The notes under the pieces are model-generated. The model had not been told where the DNA came from and ran no database searches. It worked only from the letters and a program-made list of their open reading frames with translations. 64,000 bases of DNA from Candidatus Zixiibacteriota bacterium (GTDB taxonomy: Bacteria; Zixibacteria; MSB-5A5; UBA10806; 4484-95), in NCBI GenBank assembly GCA_021159005.1, contig JAGGSN010000195.1, forward strand, positions 1-64,000, given 5' to 3'. Made by a program: the position numbers and the translations under genes. Below, piece after piece: positions 13,718-23,127 of this stretch (the first letter of the stretch is position 1; every line of letters begins with the position of its first letter).

Positions 13718-14239
13718 ATGATTAGTAAAAAAATGGAAAACGCTTTAAACAATCAAATACGAGAGGAGTTCTTCTCGGCATATCTCTACCTGGCGATGTC
13801 TGCTTGGTTTGAGACAATAAACCTGAAAGGTTTCGCAAACTGGATGAGAATTCAGAATCAGGAAGAGCAAATGCATGCTATGAAGATATTCGATTACCTC
13901 AATGAACGCGGCGGTAAAGTGAAGCTTCAAAAAATCGACGAACCGCTATATGAATGGGAAACTCCTTTGGCTGCGTTTGAAGCCGCCTACAAGCATGAAC
14001 AGCATATAACTGGCTGTTTTAACGATTTGGTCGATCTGGCTATGGAGGAAAAAGACCGGGCTTCGCAAATATTCTTCGACTGGTTTGTAAACGAGCAGGT
14101 CGAGGAGGAAGCCACTGCCGATGGAATTGTTCAGCAGTTAAAACTGGTTGGCGATAAAGGTCAGGGTATTTTTATGATAGACCGAGAACTTGGAACACGG
14201 GTTTTCACGCTGCCTGCGCAATCGGAGTCTGGCGCTTAA
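13718..14239 (+). CDS. ftn: Bacterial non-heme ferritin
   Basis: A 173-residue ferritin that stores iron and removes Fe(II) that would drive Fenton chemistry. Ferroxidase residues appear in place: EEFFSAYLYLAMSAWFE (Glu in helix A), NQEEQMHAMKIFDYL (E-x-x-H in helix B), LAMEEKD (helix C) and WFVNEQVEEEA (helix D, Glu/Gln). Length and order match prokaryotic FtnA. It starts with ATG 13718 after TGGAG. It lies between the rubrerythrin-like gene and the selenocysteine peroxiredoxin. Confidence 0.93.
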   Translation: MISKKMENALNNQIREEFFSAYLYLAMSAWFETINLKGFANWMRIQNQEEQMHAMKIFDYLNERGGKVKLQKIDEPLYEWETPLAAFEAAYKHEQHITGCFNDLVDLAMEEKDRASQIFFDWFVNEQVEEEATADGIVQQLKLVGDKGQGIFMIDRELGTRVFTLPAQSESGA

Positions 14240-14371
14240 ATAAGGAGGGATGAAAATATGGAGAACGATAAAAAACAACCATGTGTTCAGCCAACAAAAG
14301 GTCCTGTTGGTGTGAATGGCATAGATGAATTCTCTCAAAATGAGGTGAAAAAGGAAGAGGAGGAAATCAAG

Positions 14372-14980
14372 ATGTTGGCTCGTGTTGGCAAACCTGCGCC
14401 TGATTTCGAAGCAAATGCTTTTATTGATGGCGCATTTAAAAATATCAAATTGTCAGATTATAAAGGCCAATGGGTAACGCTCTGCTTTTATCCGGGTGAT
14501 TTTACTTTTGTCTGACCGACAGAATTGACGGCAGTTGCCGTTAAGTATGATGAGCTTAAGGCTCTTGGTGTGCAGGTGCTTTCTATGAGTACTGACAGCC
14601 ATTTTACTCACAAAATCTGGCAGGAAGAAGAACTTTCCAAGATGGTAAAAGGCGGTGTGCCATTTCCTATGTTGTCTGACCAAGGCGGTCGGATTGGCAA
14701 AGTTTATGGTGTTTATGAAGAGGATGCTGGCATCGATATCAGGGGTCGTTTCCTGATTGATCCCGATGGCATCATTCAAGCGATGGAGGTTATGACCCCG
14801 CCTGTCGGGCGTAATGTTTCAGAGCTGATTCGTCAGGTTCAAGCATTCCAGCATGTCCGCGAAACGGGTGAAGCCACTCCATCCGGATGGAAACCGGGAA
14901 AACCAACTCTCAAACCCGGACCTGATTTAGTTGGTAAAGTCTGGAAAGTCTGGAAAACAGAAAATGCATTTGAAAAATAG
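14372..14980 (+). CDS. prxU: Selenocysteine-containing peroxiredoxin (in-frame UGA at the peroxidatic position)
   Basis: A 202-residue peroxiredoxin read through an in-frame TGA at 14513-14515. The peptide reads FYPGDFTFV-[TGA]-PTELTAV, so the stop codon replaces precisely the peroxidatic Cys of the Prx1/AhpC family (residue 48 from ATG 14372, the usual place). Downstream the family continues intact: [29 protein letters not shown] and PPVGRN. The usual resolving Cys is lost ([11 protein letters not shown] where relatives have E-V-C-P), leaving C-37 in TLCFYPG as the only other Cys. A SECIS-like hairpin follows the UGA, and selC is in the same island. Start ATG 14372 has GAGGAGG eight bases ahead; the frame is also open from ATG 14258, adding 38 charged residues. 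Without decoding, the gene would be a nonsense pseudogene. Confidence 0.88.
14525..14544 (+). promoter_or_regulatory. SECIS-like hairpin directing UGA recoding
   Basis: TTGACGGC (14525-14532) and GCCGTTAA (14537-14544) pair over eight bases, including one G-U, around the apical loop AGTT. The loop begins 17 bases after the UGA and has G in its second position. Bacterial SECIS elements lie just downstream of the UGA inside the coding region and carry a G at the start of a small apical loop, so spacing and loop agree. Confidence 0.7.
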
Positions 14981-14997
14981 AATTAAGGAGATTTTAA

Positions 14998-15573
14998 GTG
15001 CCTAATTTAAAAGAAACCAAAACAGAAGTGAATTTACTAACCGCTTTTGCTGGCGAGTCTCAAGCAAGGAATCGTTATACATATTTCGCCAGCCAAGCTA
15101 AGAAAGATGGTTTCATTCAGATATCCCACATCTTCGAGGAAACCGCTAATCAGGAAAAAGAGCATGCTAAAAGATTATTCAAATTCCTTGAAGGCGGAGA
15201 GGTCGAAATTCAGGCTGCTTTCCCAGCTGGTGTAATAGGCAGTACGGCTGAGAATCTCAAAGCCTCTGCTGGCGGCGAACATTACGAATGGGAGACTATG
15301 TATCCCGAATTCGCCAAGATTGCTCGTGAGGAAGGTTTCGATGCTATTGCCAAGGTATTTGAAGCTATCGCTATCGCTGAAAAACAGCATGAGAAACGCT
15401 ACCTCGACCTTCTGAAAAACGTAGAAGCCGGTTCGGTTTTCAAAAAGGAAAAGAAAGTTGTTTGGCGATGCCGTAATTGCGGCTACCTTCATGAGGGCGA
15501 TGAAGCTCTGGGTATTTGTCCGGCCTGCGCACATCCTCAAGCGCATTTCGAACTTCTATCGGAGAACTGGTAG
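14998..15573 (+). CDS. rbr: Rubrerythrin
   Basis: A 191-residue cytoplasmic peroxidase of anaerobes. The N-terminal diiron four-helix domain has AGESQARNRYTYFA, EETANQEKEHAKRLF and AIAIAEKQHEKRYL, supplying the Glu and His ligands. The C-terminal rubredoxin domain has CRNCGYLHEG and CPACAHPQAHFEL, the standard rubrerythrin arrangement. It starts with GTG 14998 after AAGGAG. A very strong hairpin terminator begins 11 bp after the stop, so this gene closes the transcription unit that starts at the PerR-like gene. Confidence 0.95.
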   Translation: MPNLKETKTEVNLLTAFAGESQARNRYTYFASQAKKDGFIQISHIFEETANQEKEHAKRLFKFLEGGEVEIQAAFPAGVIGSTAENLKASAGGEHYEWETMYPEFAKIAREEGFDAIAKVFEAIAIAEKQHEKRYLDLLKNVEAGSVFKKEKKVVWRCRNCGYLHEGDEALGICPACAHPQAHFELLSENW

Positions 15574-15583
15574 AATATTTGTA

Positions 15584-15612
15584 AAGGGATTTGTTTTTAA
15601 AACAAATCCCTT
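15584..15612. terminator. Strong terminator hairpin after rbr
   Basis: AAGGGATTTGTTTT and AAAACAAATCCCTT form a perfect 14-bp inverted repeat around a single base. Its T-rich and A-rich inner arms and position 11 bp after the rbr stop fit a terminator closing the peroxide-defence operon. Confidence 0.75.
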
Positions 15613-15694
15613 ATTCATTAATGATAATAACGGAAGCGTTGAATTATAATTATGAAGGCACCTTTTATTCATAAAACCAACTGGAGTAATTTGC

Positions 15695-16795
15695 GTGAAA
15701 GTGAATGATATTAGCTTATTAATTGGCGGATATGCCGGTCAGGGTGTTCAGACAATTGCCAACTCTTTTGCCCGGTTATGTACAAGAGCTGGCTTGTATG
15801 CATTCGTTAATTTCGAATATCCATCAAATATTAAGGGTGAACATAATTATGCTCAGATTATGGTTTCAGAAAAGAATATAGGCAGTTCAACTACTCAAGT
15901 TGATTTACTTGTGGCCCTTGATATAAAAACTGCAAATGAACATATAAGCAAAATTCGTCCGGGCGGCGCGCTTATTTATGATAATAAAAACCTGGAAGTA
16001 AGTCATATTGATACAGGGCTTAAGGTTAATTCAATTGAACGGGATGATATAATAGTTATTGATGTTCCCTTTTCTGATATTGTTATTGAAATGGACGGCT
16101 CAAAAAAAATGATCAATTCTATTGGATTAGGAGCTGTTATAGGATTGTTAAGATTAGATTTCGAGCTTCTTGACGGCATGCTTCATCAATCATTATCAAA
16201 GTTTGAAGATAAGATTATCAAGCAAAACCTTGAAGGGGCAAGATATGCTTATGATAAAATCAAGGATGAATACTCTGAACAATTTGGCGTGTCTTTGGAG
16301 CCGCTCGACGCACCGGATAGAATGTTTCTAACAGGCAAGCAAGGATTTATTTCAAGCAGCACACCCTCAGGTTCAATAGAAATGCCGTTCAGTCCTGCCG
16401 CATTGGCTATAGCTTCAGGAGCCGGATTTGTTGCTGCAGGCTATTCAGGCGACACGATGCAGTTGGACGATTTGATAGTTGAAAAAATTAAACATCGCTG
16501 TTTCTCCTTAATAAATATTATGCAAGTTTGTGTATCGTTTAATCCCGAGAAAAGTTACAAATGGTATAAAGAGCGGGTTTATAAACTTGAAAACGAAAAT
16601 TGTGAATCTACCGATCGCAACAAAGCCTTAAACTTAGCTCTCTCCATTGGTAATGACCGATTACCAACGGGCATATTATATCAGCATAAACAGGCAGCAT
16701 ATGAAGATTCATTGCCGCAGATAAAAAAATCCCCTTTAGTAAACCATGATATAGGTAATGTTAATATTAACAGTTTAATGGCGGATTTTGTGTAA
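15695..16795 (+). CDS. Unusual 2-oxoacid:acceptor oxidoreductase-like protein: gamma domain joined to C-terminal beta piece
   Basis: A 366-residue protein. Residues 1-195 match the gamma domain of 2-oxoacid:ferredoxin oxidoreductases (GGYAGQGVQTIANSFAR, PSNIKGEHNYAQI, NSIGLGAVIGLL). From about 215 it resembles the C-terminal part of the TPP-binding beta subunit: MFLTGKQGFISSSTPSG, FSPAALAIASGAGFVAAG, CFSLINIMQVCVSFN, WYKERVYKL and YEDSLP. The part of beta that holds the TPP motif (GDGD and following) is absent, as is the alpha subunit. It therefore cannot be a complete oxidoreductase alone. It starts at GTG 15695 with GGAG and sits just before the flavodiiron gene. Role unknown; it may be a regulatory or electron-transfer relic in oxygen reduction. 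Confidence 0.65.
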   Translation: MKVNDISLLIGGYAGQGVQTIANSFARLCTRAGLYAFVNFEYPSNIKGEHNYAQIMVSEKNIGSSTTQVDLLVALDIKTANEHISKIRPGGALIYDNKNLEVSHIDTGLKVNSIERDDIIVIDVPFSDIVIEMDGSKKMINSIGLGAVIGLLRLDFELLDGMLHQSLSKFEDKIIKQNLEGARYAYDKIKDEYSEQFGVSLEPLDAPDRMFLTGKQGFISSSTPSGSIEMPFSPAALAIASGAGFVAAGYSGDTMQLDDLIVEKIKHRCFSLINIMQVCVSFNPEKSYKWYKERVYKLENENCESTDRNKALNLALSIGNDRLPTGILYQHKQAAYEDSLPQIKKSPLVNHDIGNVNINSLMADFV

Positions 16796-16865
16796 ATTTT
16801 AATAATACTATTTTTATGGTATCGTTTATCAAACAGCTAAGAGAAAGATAATTGAAAGGATAATC

Positions 16866-18086
16866 ATGAATACAACATTGCAAAAAGGAATCGACTGGGT
16901 TGGATATGTTGATTGGAAAACTCGCGACTTCCACGGTTATAATACCCAACGCGGCGCTACTTATAATGCCTATCTTATACAAGATGATAATTCGGCGCTT
17001 ATAGACACGGTGAAAAAACCTTATGCAGTGGAACTGTTAAAAAATATATCCGCATTGTCAGAGTTGTCTAATATAAAATATATAGTGTGTAATCACGCCG
17101 AACCAGATCACTCCGGGGCACTGCCGATTGTAATGGAATCTATTCCAAACGCAACATTGGTTTGCAATAAAAAATGTCAGGCAACACTTTCGCAATATTA
17201 CGATACTTCAAAATGGAAATTCCACATAGTTGCTACAGGCGATACTATCTCTCTTGGTAAAAGAACTCTTCATTTCATTGAAACACCAATGCTACACTGG
17301 CCGGAGTCAATGTTTACATACATACCGGAGGATAAGCTGCTATTTTCGATGGATGCGTTTGGCCAGCATTACGCCACCTCACAGCGTTTTAATGATGAAG
17401 TTCCCCTGTGTACTGTTATGGAAGAGGCAAAAACATATTATGCCAACATAATCATGTCCTATGGCAAGCAGGTTGAGAAAACCCTCGACCGCTTAACCGG
17501 TATTGATGTTGAGATGATTGCGCCAAGTCACGGCGTGGTCTGGCGAAAAAATGTATCAGATATAATCAATATATATAAAAAATGGGCGACCAATAGCTTT
17601 AAACCTAAGGTCTTGGTTATCTACGATACGATGTGGGAAAGTACGGAACAGATGGCAATGGCGATTCATGAAGGAGCTTCTTTGCCCGGCATTGAATCCA
17701 ATCTCATTCATATTAGACACTCCGATTTAACTAAAATAGCAGCTGAAGTATTGGATGCATCTTCTGTAGCTTTTGGATCAGCTACACTTAACGGCGGTAT
17801 GATGCCAATGGCAGGAGCTGTTTTAACTTATTTGAAAGGATTAAGACCAGCAAAAAAAGCATGTTTTGCTTTTGGTTCGTATGGCTGGGGTAAGGGCGCT
17901 CCGGAGGCGATTGAAGAATACTTTAAAACAATGAAATGGGATATAATAAACGAGCCTATCAAATCGCGATACAAGCCAACATCAGAACTGTTGAATGAGT
18001 GTCGAGCGGCTGGTAGAACACTTGGCGAGAAAGCAAAAACAATTGCTCAAAATATTGCAGGTGAGAAAATTTGTATAAACCCATAA
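16866..18086 (+). CDS. Flavodiiron protein (rubredoxin:oxygen/NO oxidoreductase)
   Basis: A 406-residue cytoplasmic enzyme that reduces oxygen to water and/or NO to N2O. The N-terminal metallo-beta-lactamase-like domain carries the diiron ligands: NHAEPDHSG (H-x-E-x-D-H), the His in ETPMLHWPESM, the Asp in FSMDAFGQHYA, and the His in PSHGVVW. From about residue 255 a flavodoxin domain follows (VLVIYDTMWESTEQMA; GSATLNGGMMP; FGSYGWGKGAPE). No rubredoxin or NADH domain is fused; instead a separate rubredoxin gene lies 30 bp downstream, the expected electron donor. The start follows GAAAGGATAATC. Confidence 0.95.
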   Translation: MNTTLQKGIDWVGYVDWKTRDFHGYNTQRGATYNAYLIQDDNSALIDTVKKPYAVELLKNISALSELSNIKYIVCNHAEPDHSGALPIVMESIPNATLVCNKKCQATLSQYYDTSKWKFHIVATGDTISLGKRTLHFIETPMLHWPESMFTYIPEDKLLFSMDAFGQHYATSQRFNDEVPLCTVMEEAKTYYANIIMSYGKQVEKTLDRLTGIDVEMIAPSHGVVWRKNVSDIINIYKKWATNSFKPKVLVIYDTMWESTEQMAMAIHEGASLPGIESNLIHIRHSDLTKIAAEVLDASSVAFGSATLNGGMMPMAGAVLTYLKGLRPAKKACFAFGSYGWGKGAPEAIEEYFKTMKWDIINEPIKSRYKPTSELLNECRAAGRTLGEKAKTIAQNIAGEKICINP

Positions 18087-18116
18087 ATCAAATCATTAGT
18101 CAACAAAGGAGACGGG

Positions 18117-18278
18117 ATGACTAAATACGTTTGCGATGTTTGCGGTTGGATTTACGATCCGACAGAAGGGCTGATTAAAGAAGGCATTAAACTCGGTACG
18201 CTTTTTAAGGATTTGCCGGATGATTTCGTTTGCCCCGAGTGCGGTGCTGGTAAGGATGACTTTTCACCGGTGGAGTAA
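18117..18278 (+). CDS. rd: Rubredoxin
   Basis: A 53-residue one-iron electron carrier, easily missed because of its size. It reads [18 protein letters not shown] and continues to [19 protein letters not shown]: two C-x2-C pairs in CDVCG and CPECG with the standard spacing, and the aromatic residues of the rubredoxin core. AAAGGAGAC precedes ATG 18117. It follows the flavodiiron gene by 30 bp and most likely feeds it, and perhaps the rubrerythrins and desulfoferrodoxin, with electrons. Confidence 0.95.
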
Positions 18279-18508
18279 AATATTTGTAATGTTAAAACAT
18301 CTACTATTGTTATTCAATCAGAAAACTGGTTGTGAATTGATGTATTAAAAAATATTTACTCTTAATGCAATAGAAATATGTTTGCAAATATGCGTAAGGC
18401 AAAATCCAAGCATGGCATGTTGAATAACGCATAATAAGTAGTTTAATGAACGAGCTAAAATAAACTGAAAGTGATAGTACCAGCTCATTCTTATAGAAAG
18501 GAAATGAT

Positions 18509-18928
18509 ATAGACAAGACAAAATATGGCATAAGCACTGAACTCCAGCTTGATTTTAACGACGCGGTTACCTAAACCATTGCTTGCCTGAAAAACCAGGG
18601 CTTTGGGGTTCTGGCTGAGATTGACGTTAAAGAAACATTGAAGAGGAAGCTGGGTATCGATTTTGAAAGATATCGTATACTGGGTGCCTGTAATCCACAG
18701 TTGGCATACAAGGCATTATCTGAAGAGGAAGAAATCGGTTTGCTTTTGCCGTGCAATGTTATCATTTACGAAACTTCAGAAGGTAAAGCCAGAGTTGCAG
18801 CAGTTGACCCTGTAAAAGCAATGTCAATTGTAAGTAACGATGCGGTAAAACCGATTGCCGAGATGGTTCGCCAGAAACTCTTATCAGTAATCGCGGTTCT
18901 TGAGGAATCATCAGACAAGAAAGTGTAG
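18509..18928 (+). pseudogene. DUF302-family protein, broken by nonsense and start-codon changes
   Basis: The frame encodes a full DUF302 domain (KYGISTELQLDFNDAVT, QGFGVLAEIDVKETL, FERYRILGACNPQLA, LLLPCNVIIYE, then VDPVKAMSIV). It is interrupted by TAA at 18572-18574 inside the first helix, and no ATG, GTG or TTG opens the frame: the expected start position after AAAGGAAA reads ATA (18509-18511). Two independent lesions argue for a dead gene and against recoding. A shortened product from an internal ATG (18638) lacks the N-terminal strand. DUF302 proteins are often found near cytochrome and sulfur or oxygen defence genes, as here just before cydAB. Confidence 0.8.
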
Positions 18929-19005
18929 ATAAGCATGCTATTGCAGAGTGCTGTTGCCGCAGAATACTCAGGAAAAATATTTTCAGAGTATAAGGAGGAA
19001 TTAAT

Positions 19006-20349
19006 ATGGATTTTGATCCGGTATTATTGTCACGCATTCAGTTTGCGATGACAATTGGTTTCCACTTTATCTTTCCACCCATATCGATAGGGCTGGCCTG
19101 GCTGTTGGTCTTTATAGAGTGGCAGGGTTGGAGGAAAGATGATAGCACCTACAAAAGCATGGGTAAATTCTTCGGCAAACTTTTGGCCATTACATTTGCG
19201 GTTGGCGTTGCTACAGGTATTGTGATGGAATTCCAGTTTGGTACAAACTGGGCGGAATATTCAAAATTTGTTGGCGATATTTTTGGCGCGCCATTAGCGG
19301 CTGAGGGTATTTTCGCCTTTTTCCTTGAATCGGCATTCTTAGGACTTTATCTGTTCGGTAGGAATAAAGTGTCTAAGGGTGTTCACTGGTTCTCGATTTT
19401 TATGGTAGCTGTCGGTTCGACCTTATCCGCTTTCTGGATTCTCGTGGCAAACTCCTGGCAGCAAACACCGGCTGGTTTTATAATTCAGAATGGGCGGGCA
19501 GAATTGATAAATTTCTGGGAAGCGGTATTTAACCCCTCGATGATTATACGCTTTTTCCATACCGTTGATGCAACACTAATCGCTGGCGCATTTGTCATGG
19601 CTGGTATTTCAGCTTATTTATATCTAAACAACAAAGGTGTTGAAATTGCTAAGAAAGCTTTGAAACTATCGATTATCGTCGGTTTGGCAGCTTCATTGCT
19701 CGAACTGTATCCGCTTGGTCATGAACATACTGTTCAGGTAGGCAAAACCCAACCTGAGAAATTGGCGGCGATGGAGGGTTTAATCGATGGCCAGGAACGG
19801 GCGCCCTTGCTAATGTTTGGCGTCCCTCAACAATCACCTGAACCGGACTTGAAAGCCAAGATTGCTCTGCCCGGTCTCCTGAGTTTGGGAATACATGGCG
19901 ACATGAACGCTTACGTACCCGGACTCAATGATTTCCAACGGGATGAGATACCACCGTTTATTCTGACGTTTATTTCATTCCACACCATGGTGGGTTTGGG
20001 GATGTTTTTTATCGGGATTATGTTATTAGGCGCTTTTTTACTTTACCGAAAACAATTATGGGACCAAAGATGGTTCCTAAAAATACTTATGCTTTCAATA
20101 CCATTGCCTCTTATAGCCATACAACTTGGCTGGATATCTGCCGAGGTGGGACGTCAACCATGGGTAGTTTACAGAGTATTAAAAACCGCTGATGCTGTTT
20201 CATTGACTGTATCAGCAGGGGAGATTCTATTTTCAATAATTCTGTTCGGTATAATCTACATATTTATCGGCGCTCTGTATCTCTATATCATGGGCAGGGA
20301 AATTCAGCGGGGTCCGGAATTAACGAGTATTGCAGAGGTGAAATCATGA
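19006..20349 (+). CDS. cydA: Cytochrome bd quinol oxidase subunit I
   Basis: A 447-residue inner-membrane protein with about nine membrane helices. It holds the heme ligands and quinol site of a high-affinity oxygen reductase. Seen: FHFIFPPISIGLAW (His ligand of heme b595/d region), GVATGIVMEFQFGTNW, ESAFLGLYLFG (Glu and Phe of the proton path), and GWISAEVGRQPW, the highly conserved block after the Q-loop. The Q-loop between residues about 245 and 315 is short, so it belongs to the short-loop group. The start has AAGGAGGAATTAAT. Its last four bases overlap cydB (ATGA), so translation is coupled. Confidence 0.95.
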   Translation: MDFDPVLLSRIQFAMTIGFHFIFPPISIGLAWLLVFIEWQGWRKDDSTYKSMGKFFGKLLAITFAVGVATGIVMEFQFGTNWAEYSKFVGDIFGAPLAAEGIFAFFLESAFLGLYLFGRNKVSKGVHWFSIFMVAVGSTLSAFWILVANSWQQTPAGFIIQNGRAELINFWEAVFNPSMIIRFFHTVDATLIAGAFVMAGISAYLYLNNKGVEIAKKALKLSIIVGLAASLLELYPLGHEHTVQVGKTQPEKLAAMEGLIDGQERAPLLMFGVPQQSPEPDLKAKIALPGLLSLGIHGDMNAYVPGLNDFQRDEIPPFILTFISFHTMVGLGMFFIGIMLLGAFLLYRKQLWDQRWFLKILMLSIPLPLIAIQLGWISAEVGRQPWVVYRVLKTADAVSLTVSAGEILFSIILFGIIYIFIGALYLYIMGREIQRGPELTSIAEVKS

Positions 20350-21365
20350 TCGATTTAAATACAACTTGGTTTATTTTAATAGGCGTGCTGTTTACCGGGT
20401 ATGCAATATTAGATGGCTTTGATTTTGGTGTCGGTATACTACACTTGTTTGCCAAAAATAATAATGAACGTCGAATCAATATGAATGCTATCGGTCCTGT
20501 TTGGGATGCCAACGAAGTTTGGTTATTAACAGGCGGCGGCGCTTTATTTGCGGCATTCCCGATTGTCTATGCTACAGTATTCAGCGGATTTTACTTAGCC
20601 TTGATGCTTATCTTAGCCGCGCTTATTTTCCGAGCCGTATCACTTGAGTTCAGGAGCAAAATAGATTCTCCGGGCTGGCAGAGATTCTGGGATTGGTCGT
20701 TTGGTCTGGGAAGCTTATTGCCGGCGGTACTGTTTGGTGTTGCCGCGGGTAATATTCTAAGAGGTATTCCATTAGATGAAAACGGAGTATTTGTCGGATC
20801 CTTCTTGGGGTTATTAAATCCTTATTCAATCCTCATAGGCGTTCTAAGCTTAGTGATGTTTGCTCTTCACGGCGCCCTTTATATGACACTTAAAACCGAT
20901 GGAGAATTGAGAGACAAAATGACCAAATGGGCTTCCGGTTCATGGATCGGAATCATTATTGTTTATTTGTTGGCGACAATCTATACATTCTTCGAAGCGG
21001 GATTTCTTTTTGATGGCATATTAAGTGCGCCGTTGTTCTGGATTCTGTTTATACTCCTGCTGGCGGTAATCATTTTTATCCCGATAGGTTTGAAATCCGG
21101 CCGCTATTTCCGGTCATTTCTGGCATCATCGGTTACTATTATCTGTATGATAGGTTTAGCCGCAGTTAGTCTTTTCCCACGTTTAGTGCCATCCAATATC
21201 GATTTGAGATACAGTTTGAATATTTATAATGCCTCATCGACACCACGTACTCTAACAGTTATGCTTATTATGGCATTGATTGGGATGCCGATTGTAATAG
21301 GCTGCACTATCTATATCTATCGGGTTTTTAAAGGTAAAACCGTAATAACGGATGAGAGTTATTGA
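20346..21365 (+). CDS. cydB: Cytochrome bd quinol oxidase subunit II
   Basis: A 339-residue multi-pass membrane partner of CydA, with about eight to nine helices. Family marks: FILIGVLFTGYAILDGFDFGVG at the start (shown here only as a motif), then GPVWDANEVWLLTGGGALFAAFP, both classic for CydB. It overlaps the cydA stop by four bases. In a mostly anaerobic organism this enzyme scavenges oxygen and lets menaquinol be oxidised at low oxygen. It is followed after 24 bp by the exported methionine sulfoxide reductase, probably in one transcript. Confidence 0.95.
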   Translation: MIDLNTTWFILIGVLFTGYAILDGFDFGVGILHLFAKNNNERRINMNAIGPVWDANEVWLLTGGGALFAAFPIVYATVFSGFYLALMLILAALIFRAVSLEFRSKIDSPGWQRFWDWSFGLGSLLPAVLFGVAAGNILRGIPLDENGVFVGSFLGLLNPYSILIGVLSLVMFALHGALYMTLKTDGELRDKMTKWASGSWIGIIIVYLLATIYTFFEAGFLFDGILSAPLFWILFILLLAVIIFIPIGLKSGRYFRSFLASSVTIICMIGLAAVSLFPRLVPSNIDLRYSLNIYNASSTPRTLTVMLIMALIGMPIVIGCTIYIYRVFKGKTVITDESY

Positions 21366-21389
21366 TTAATAACAAAGAGGAGGTTCTAA

Positions 21390-22331
21390 TTGAATTATGT
21401 AATAATAATCCTGACCTCTTTACTTTGGAGTGTAACTTGTTCAGCTGTCCAAGCAAAGGAAAATAGTATTAAACACGACAAATTAACTTCCGAAGAAGAA
21501 CAAGTAATTATTCATAAAGGTACCGAAAGGCCTTTCTCCGGTAAATACTATGAACTCAGCGATAAGGGGATATATACCTGCAAAAGGTGCAATGCGCCGC
21601 TTTATAGTTCTGATGATAAATTCAACCCTCACTGCGGTTGGCCAAGTTTTGATGATGCAATACCGGGAGCGATAAAACAAATTCCTGATGCTGATGGTAT
21701 CCGTACAGAAATTATCTGCAATAATTGCGGTGGTCATCTGGGACATGTATTTTTAAATGAAGGTCTTACCGATAAAAATGTGCGTTATTGCGTAAATTCG
21801 ATTTCGCTGAACTTCACTCCCGCTGCTCAAGATTATTCAGCTCAAAAAGCGTATTTCGCCGCCGGCTGTTTCTGGGGAGTAGAATATTATTTTCAACAAG
21901 AAAGCGGTGTTATCTCTACGCTGGTCGGTTATATGGGCGGACAAACGAATAATCCAACATACGAAGAAGTTTGCGCCGGAAATTCCGGTCATGCTGAAGC
22001 TGTCGAAGTTGTCTATAATCCAGTTTTAACTAACTATGAAAAATTATCCCGGTTGTTTTTTGAAATCCATGATCCCACTCAGGTAAACCGGCAAGGACCG
22101 GATATCGGCGAACAATACAGATCGGTTATTTTTTATTCAAACGATGATGAAAAGAAAACAGCGGAAAAGCTAATAAATATCCTTACAGAAAGTGGTTATA
22201 AAATAGCTACTGAAGTTGTAAAAATCACAGAGTTTTGGGAAGCTGAAAAATATCACCAGAACTATTTTAATAATAATGGTAATGCATGTCATATTAGAAC
22301 TCATATTTGGAATAGAATCTTGAAAAAATAA
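21390..22331 (+). CDS. msrBA: Exported MsrB-MsrA fusion, methionine sulfoxide reductase
   Basis: A 313-residue bifunctional repair enzyme that reduces both stereoisomers of methionine sulfoxide. Residues 1-23 form a signal peptide, so it works in the periplasm. MsrB comes first (about 30-150): the zinc cysteines CKRC and CNNC, GHLGHVF, and the catalytic Cys in RYCVNS. MsrA follows (about 155-313) with the catalytic GCFWGVEYYFQ and the GHAEAV and DPTQVNRQG motifs. This B-then-A order is the reverse of PilB-type fusions. It starts at TTG 21390 with AGAGGAGG six bases ahead. It is encoded immediately after cydAB, fitting repair of oxidised envelope proteins. Confidence 0.93.
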   Translation: MNYVIIILTSLLWSVTCSAVQAKENSIKHDKLTSEEEQVIIHKGTERPFSGKYYELSDKGIYTCKRCNAPLYSSDDKFNPHCGWPSFDDAIPGAIKQIPDADGIRTEIICNNCGGHLGHVFLNEGLTDKNVRYCVNSISLNFTPAAQDYSAQKAYFAAGCFWGVEYYFQQESGVISTLVGYMGGQTNNPTYEEVCAGNSGHAEAVEVVYNPVLTNYEKLSRLFFEIHDPTQVNRQGPDIGEQYRSVIFYSNDDEKKTAEKLINILTESGYKIATEVVKITEFWEAEKYHQNYFNNNGNACHIRTHIWNRILKK

Positions 22332-22375
22332 ATAAGCAAACTAAGGACATCTCAAATATCTTGAAAGGATTATTT

Positions 22376-22888
22376 ATGGAAGTTGAAAAAGCCATTAAAA
22401 CCGCAATTGAATATGAAAATAAAGTAAAAGATATTTATGCTGAAGCGGCAAAAAATTCTCAGAATGAAATCGCCAGAAATGTTTTCCGAAAACTTGCCAG
22501 AGAGGAGCAAGAACATATCGATTATTTGGAAAGTCGTTTTATCGAATGGCAGAAAACGGGCAAGGTATCTCTGGAAAAGCTTAAGACTATTATTCCAAGT
22601 AAAAACGTTATCAATGAAGGCGTCAAAAAACTTAAAAACAACATGAAGAAATCTGATAAATATGGCGAAGTGCAGATGTTGGGCAAAGCTTTAAATGTTG
22701 AAATTGAAACTAGCAATTTCTACAAAGAGATGGTTGACCAGCTTGAGAATGAACCGCAGAAAATGTTCAAGCGTTTCCTCGAAATTGAGGAAGGACATCT
22801 GGCAATCGTTCAGGCTGAAATCGATTCAATTACAGGCGCCGGATTTTGGTTTGATTTCCAGGAATTCAACCTTGAAGCCGAAGGTTAA
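22376..22888 (+). CDS. Rubrerythrin-like diiron protein without rubredoxin domain (second copy)
   Basis: A 170-residue four-helix protein. Helix B has AREEQEHIDYLESRF and helix D has EIEEGHLAIVQAE, both E-x-x-H, with matching Glu residues in IEYENKVKDIY and NVEIETSNFY. No rubredoxin module is present. It is about as long as the protein at 13238-13690 but differs in sequence. Start ATG 22376 follows AAAGGAT; a TTG at 22361 in the same frame would overlap that site. It closes the oxygen-defence island, with selC lying next on the opposite strand. Confidence 0.8.
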   Translation: MEVEKAIKTAIEYENKVKDIYAEAAKNSQNEIARNVFRKLAREEQEHIDYLESRFIEWQKTGKVSLEKLKTIIPSKNVINEGVKKLKNNMKKSDKYGEVQMLGKALNVEIETSNFYKEMVDQLENEPQKMFKRFLEIEEGHLAIVQAEIDSITGAGFWFDFQEFNLEAEG

Positions 22889-23034: not shown

Positions 23035-23127
23035 CGGAAGGGACAGGAATCGAACCTGCCATGGCCGGGATCACCGGCCACCTACGGTTTTGAAGACCGC
23101 GAGAGCCACCAGACCCTATCCGCTTCC
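23035..23127 (-). tRNA. selC: tRNA-Sec (UCA anticodon), bulged acceptor branch
   Basis: A 93-base minus-strand tRNA with the features of selenocysteine tRNA. It has an anticodon loop CUUCAAA (anticodon UCA) on the stem GCGGU/ACCGU, a 6-bp D stem (AGGGUC/GGCUCU) with a 4-base loop UGGU, and a long variable arm (UGGCCGG/CCCGGCC-type, seven pairs). The T loop UUCGAUU sits on CAGG/CCUG, and the discriminator is G. The acceptor strand 5' GGAAG-C-GGA pairs with UCCCUUCC over eight bases only if the C at position 6 is bulged out, giving an 8/4 branch with one bulge instead of the usual 8/5. CCA is not encoded. Upstream on the minus strand are TTGACT and TATATT, with wide spacing. selA, selB and selD are not in the window. 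Confidence 0.95.

Follow-up and report, generated by a model that had tools for sequence, protein, structure and literature searches.

The tRNA-Sec gene (selC) that we analysed in the window, by which we mean the whole 64,000-nucleotide stretch of Candidatus Zixiibacteriota DNA, very probably encodes the only tRNA-Sec of its organism, a molecule whose acceptor and T stems form a 12-pair 7/5 branch with a single bulged nucleotide in the 5' acceptor strand, just after pair 5-68, and which would follow the SerRS/SelA/SelB route with a spacer-like bulge. Both ARAGORN and Rfam place a tRNA-Sec gene with anticodon UCA on the minus strand at 23035-23127, as the preliminary description had proposed, and the covariance-model fold that it had called for bears this out: against RF01852 the gene scores 70 bits (gathering score 47; E = 3e-12). 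Read on the minus strand from 23127 down to 23035, where the last base is G73, its 93 nucleotides are GGAAGCGGAUAGGGUCUGGUGGCUCUCGCGGUCUUCAAAACCGUAGGUGGCCGGUGAUCCCGGCCAUGGCAGGUUCGAUUCCUGUCCCUUCCG. In addition to the score, UCA and G73, the gene has the 6-bp D stem with a 4-nt loop and the long variable arm of a bacterial tRNA-Sec. It is the sole RF01852 match above the cut-off in the whole genome; seven weaker matches below the cut-off, considered as candidates for a second tRNA-Sec, are Leu, Ser, Trp and Tyr tRNAs according to ARAGORN. The parts of the gene, all on the minus strand, are as follows.

23035 to 23127, minus strand: selC, tRNA-Sec(UCA), 93 nt including G73, CCA not encoded (next bases AUU); from ARAGORN and Rfam RF01852.
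23118 to 23127, minus strand: 5' acceptor strand GGAAG-C6-GG plus linker A9 U10; from the sequence; set against E. coli selC, its length is canonical.
23122, minus strand: bulged C6 (5a in 7/5 numbering); the 105 Zixibacteria have A, C or U here, G in none, and the base is nowhere able to pair with C67.
23036 to 23042, minus strand: 3' acceptor strand CCCUUCC, seven residues and not eight, from the sequence and 105 relatives; the E. coli eight are GAUCUUCC.
23043 to 23059, minus strand: T arm GCAGG-UUCGAUU-CCUGU, five pairs, the last being G49-U65 (23059 with 23043); 49:65 paired in 105/105, stem the same as in E. coli.
23102 to 23117, minus strand: D arm, 6-bp stem AGGGUC/GGCUCU with 4-nt loop UGGU; from the fold, 6/6 pairs in all 105 sequences.
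23084 to 23100, minus strand: anticodon arm GCGGU-CUUCAAA-ACCGU, anticodon UCA; from ARAGORN, Rfam and the fold.
23060 to 23083, minus strand: long variable arm, 8-bp hairpin; from the fold.

What sets this gene apart from E. coli selC is the length of one strand. From the end of the T loop to G73 there are 12 residues in the window selC and 13 in that of E. coli (five in the T stem plus eight in the acceptor stem), whereas the 5' strand has the same length in both, with eight acceptor residues and two linker residues before the 6-bp D stem, so that one 5' residue (C6, at 23122) is left without a partner. The branch thus has 12 pairs and lacks the 13-bp 8/5 form; since exceptions to 8/5 are known (PMC5330540), this excludes the 8/5 subtype and not tRNA-Sec as such. 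Four drawings are possible for the window sequence: 7/5 with C6 bulged, 8/4 with C6 bulged (A9-U65), and two forms with a C6/C67 mismatch. The preliminary description had recognized the 12-pair branch with a single bulged nucleotide at position 6, which the 12-nt 3' strand and the normal length of the 5' strand uphold, and it was also correct that GGAAG-C-GGA pairs with UCCCUUCC over eight bases if C6 is bulged, leaving a four-pair T stem (CAGG/CCUG). Seven residues nevertheless separate G73 from a T stem that can be drawn with five pairs, as in 7/5, and the window fold, the 105 Zixibacteria and a comparison of 36 branches (below) taken together place one bulged nucleotide in the acceptor stem at 5a.

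The short 3' strand recurs throughout the phylum. Among 133 genomes of Candidatus Zixiibacteriota, 106 contain an RF01852 match, and 105 of these 106 match a pattern that requires a 3' strand of exactly 12 nt. In the sole exception, G130, the 3' side likewise numbers 12 nt but the 5' end is degenerate, so the 12-nt strand is present in 106/106 genomes with a tRNA-Sec match. The G130 gene (G130:C8:27559-27650) has TGTAG in place of GGAAG at its 5' end (two mismatches) and an intact 3' side of 12 nt; either decay or an assembly error could account for the altered end. An ordinary 8/5 branch in relatives, one of two findings named beforehand as speaking against the bulge, was thus encountered in none of these genomes, and the conservation of the bulge, which the preliminary description had proposed to check, is matched by the short 3' strand in 105 further genomes of the phylum.

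We then read all 105 pattern-matching sequences and tabulated them by position. Positions 1-5, 7, 8 and 9 are constant, as is position 49, and position 6 is C in 50, A in 45, U in 10 and G in none. Position 6 has changed within at least five families (f3, f9, f16, f18 and f19), so its freedom does not trace to one single event. An error in sequencing or assembly, like a dead gene, has a negligible probability as the source of the bulge: the assembly is a draft of 241 contigs, but the same 12-nt strand in 105 other genomes refutes an error at 23122, the second of the findings named beforehand, and the recurrence and pattern of variation over 105 sequences rule out base-calling error. Against a dead gene, every helix is kept, and the genome has selA, selB and selD as well as two genes that contain UGA. 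Elsewhere in the molecule, a pair beyond a bulge at 43a in the anticodon stem is possible in 59-72 of the 105 sequences; bulged 43a is common in the 7/5 tRNASec set of PMC5330540. A promoter scan upstream of selC returned one weak -35/-10 match (9/12; 23162-23134, minus strand), which we do not count as evidence; comparable sites number 3 in the stretch versus 1.5 (sd 1.2) in shuffles.

Going by sequence comparison, the consensus architecture is 7/5 with the bulge at 5a. Across the 105 Zixibacteria, 7/5 with a bulge leaves 100% of cells paired, as against 91.9% for 8/4 with a bulge and 91.7% for the models without one. The 8/4 assignment of the preliminary description, in which A9 pairs with U65 as the eighth acceptor pair and G49 is left free beside a four-pair T stem, is improbable. 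It can be drawn for the window sequence and for its two family members with a match (G001 and G002), the only three of the 105 to have U65, and in the window tRNA it is 0.6 kcal/mol less stable than 7/5 with a bulge (-41.0 versus -41.6 kcal/mol). With the rest of the cloverleaf held fixed, the probability of 9:65 is 0.22, compared to 0.73 for 49:65. However, 9:65 pairs in only 3/105 Zixibacteria, because A9, constant while position 65 varies, faces C65 in the other 102; position 49, by contrast, is paired with 65 in 105/105. U65 permits A9-U65 but equally G49-U65, which yields GCAGG/CCUGU, the T stem of E. coli, so that 8/4 is only one of two near-equal uses of U65 in this one sequence. The inability of A9 to pair with 65 in 102/105, the pairing of G49 with 65 in all, and the covariation of that bond outside the phylum (C49-G65) are what decide for 7/5 over 8/4.

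There is also an adequate reason for U65 that does not involve 8/4: C7-G66, G49-U65 and C50-G64 are elements of SelB recognition and EF-Tu rejection in E. coli (PMC9976931), and the family of the window has two of these three, G49-U65 lying next to C50-G64.

A third arrangement, without any bulge, in which N6 is mismatched with C67 within a helix of 7/5 or 8/4 type, is very improbable. In Zixibacteria alone 11/12 pairs would still form and position 6 would simply lack a partner, but 6:67 stays unpaired under the unbulged models in every one of the 105 sequences, C67 never facing G6, and the two mismatch forms of the window tRNA (-37.0 and -38.3 kcal/mol) are less stable than 7/5 with a bulge, which has the lowest energy of the four cloverleaf forms. 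(The unconstrained minimum fold of the window tRNA, at -43.3 kcal/mol, is not a cloverleaf.) Because the flanking positions are invariant in Zixibacteria, the exact site of the bulge rests on Spirochaetes and a few Proteobacteria. In an alignment of 36 distinct acceptor/T branches, 7/5 with a bulge pairs 99.1% of cells, with two-sided changes at six pairs, compared to 91.0% and five, 89.1% and four, and 89.4% and four for the three rival pairings; four U7/U67 cells in this alignment are non-standard pairs. Among Spirochaetes and Gammaproteobacteria, compensatory (two-sided) changes are seen at 7:67, 8:66 and 49:65. In Spirochaetes the pairs are A7-U67 and G8-C66, and in two Gammaproteobacteria C8-G66 occurs alongside C49-G65; A8-U66 is found in an unclassified MAG (L176). 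The A7 that Spirochaetes combine with U67 and C66, and the C8-G66 of the two Gammaproteobacteria, are paired by the bulged register only. Pairing at 8:66 was the criterion by which seven of the 36 rows were chosen, which favours that pair; 49:65 and 7:67 were not selected for, yet the two-sided changes at 49:65 stem from two of those seven rows.

Similar genes are found in other lineages. When named genomes were scanned with a pattern for the 12-nt form, at least 118 loci matched, and the matches listed include Gamma-, Alpha- and Betaproteobacteria, Spirochaetes and Zixibacteria, so the preliminary description of the architecture as rare was too strong. Most of the Gamma- and Alphaproteobacterial loci listed (L060-L177) have seven continuous pairs, GGAAGAG/CUCUUCC (A6-U67, G7-C66), and place the extra residue in the linker, a known variant. 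A bulge in some genes and an extra linker residue in others make at least two ways to accommodate the short 3' strand. Two loci in records titled Klebsiella pneumoniae (L109) and Flavobacteriaceae TMED48 (L139) carry tRNA-Sec of the marine-gammaproteobacterial type, and these records are probably mis-named or mixed bins.

The closest known counterpart is the bacterial 7/5 tRNASec with a 12-bp AT stem, which Santesmasses 2017 (PMC5330540) presents in 47 top-scoring predictions, most of them bulged at 3a, 4a or 5a, from Gammaproteobacteria, Clostridiales, Spirochaetes and a few others (not all members), usually beside selA and selB and accompanied by selABC and selenoproteins. The window gene resembles type C of that source in the seven residues from the T stem to G73, the 12 pairs, the single 5' acceptor bulge (window position 6 being 5a) and the working Sec genes, and differs from the set described there in belonging to another phylum, in having the short strand in all 106 genomes with a match, and in the location of selC apart from selDAB. 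A 12-bp branch for which covariation favours 7/5 is shared with Epsilonproteobacteria (PMC4607533) and with the Cloacimonetes type, for which PMC5330540 reports the loss of one linker nucleotide instead of a bulge.

The preliminary description had likened the gene to the reported 8/4 Sec/Cys form. The minor 8/4 tRNASec and selC* tRNA-Cys (Mukai 2017, as presented in PMC7609411) do share the 12-pair branch, the single bulge and the tRNASec body; however, in that presentation selC* is bulged within the T stem (A51a), has U73 and frequently carries the anticodon GCA, whereas the window gene has an acceptor bulge, G73 and UCA, the type of Santesmasses 2017. One tRNASec-like gene that does resemble selC* tRNA-Cys (6-bp D stem, long variable arm, GCA, U73) is present in 1/133 Zixibacteria genomes (G013:C141:3355-3446, minus strand). 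Neither selB nor cysS lies beside it on its 4.5-kb contig, and contamination is a possible source; selC* tRNA-Cys is reported from Firmicutes, Thermodesulfobacteria, Nitrospirae and Proteobacteria (PMC7609411). With E. coli selC the window gene has in common the terminal GGAAG/CUUCC, the T stem GCAGG/CCUGU with G49-U65 and C50-G64, the 6-bp D stem, UCA and G73, but not the eight acceptor pairs without a bulge (8/5) or the C7-G66 of E. coli.

The genome encodes the partners that such a tRNA requires: contig C24 carries selD, selA and selB side by side, selC being on another contig. Close to the N-terminus of SelD itself (C24, 2476-3525) lies an in-frame UGA (AGUASK), at the known Sec/Cys site of this protein, and selenophosphate supply would hence depend on the selC tRNA. 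The UGA-containing peroxiredoxin named in the preliminary description as the partner of selC is indeed in the same window, and its UGA is followed closely by a SECIS-like hairpin.

14258 to 14980, plus strand: peroxiredoxin with UGA at 14513-14515, at the peroxidatic position (FTFV-U-PTE); from the translation and Pfam AhpC-TSA (E = 1.7e-38).
14525 to 14544, plus strand: SECIS-like hairpin, 8-bp stem, loop AGUU, beginning 9 nt after the UGA; from the fold.

The segment 14513-14560 folds at -12.2 kcal/mol (z = -2.88), and 0/200 shuffles are as stable. Both selC and this peroxiredoxin are found within a cluster of apparent oxidative-stress genes (13718-22888: ferritin-like protein, rubrerythrins, flavodiiron-like protein, cytochrome bd subunits and MsrAB), named mostly from reading the translations.

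Compared to an 8/5 tRNA, one 3' acceptor nucleotide is missing and the unmatched 5' nucleotide remains as a bulge. From the features of the gene we infer how the tRNA would be charged, what the bulge would do, and how SelB and EF-Tu would treat it. Charging by SerRS would proceed via G73 and the long variable arm and conversion by SelA via the 6-bp D stem, these being the features reported for the two enzymes (PMC7609411), and SelB would then deliver the tRNA to SECIS-marked UGA codons, including those of the peroxiredoxin and SelD. In E. coli, acceptance by SelB and rejection by EF-Tu depend mainly on the eight pairs of the acceptor stem (PMC7609411). The bulged nucleotide, probably stacked or partly intercalated, likely preserves a length of 13 residues (8 plus 5) in the 5' strand, such that the branch would be long to SelB and unfit for EF-Tu, and it may serve as a spacer in place of the 13th pair. 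The lack of G at position 6, where G would close the bulge, fits such a role. We propose only tentatively, and hold it to be somewhat doubtful, that the bulge is a selected, sequence-tolerant stand-in for the 13th pair that must stay unpaired, suits SelB and not EF-Tu, and is fixed phylum-wide. Alternatively, it may be a scar that is tolerated, SelB having adapted to it; the data are compatible with scar and spacer alike.

Our literature search found no paper linking Zixibacteria with a 7/5 tRNA with a bulge, and as far as that literature shows, the apparent phylum-wide fixation of the 12-nt form and the restriction of position 6 to A, C or U, never G, are new; the primary 8/4 paper lay outside the search, and we do not claim priority. 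The window gene is thus a known kind of tRNA-Sec in a phylum where the form appears fixed. In 12-nt genes, annotation tools built to expect 13 residues put G73 in the wrong place (PMC5330540). By the textbook rule, a 13-bp branch sets bacterial tRNASec apart, is needed by SelB and is rejected by EF-Tu; a phylum with 12 pairs and a bulge indicates that this rule is not strict, and the tRNA-Sec of Zixibacteria offers a natural test of whether these factors read helix length or local irregularity.
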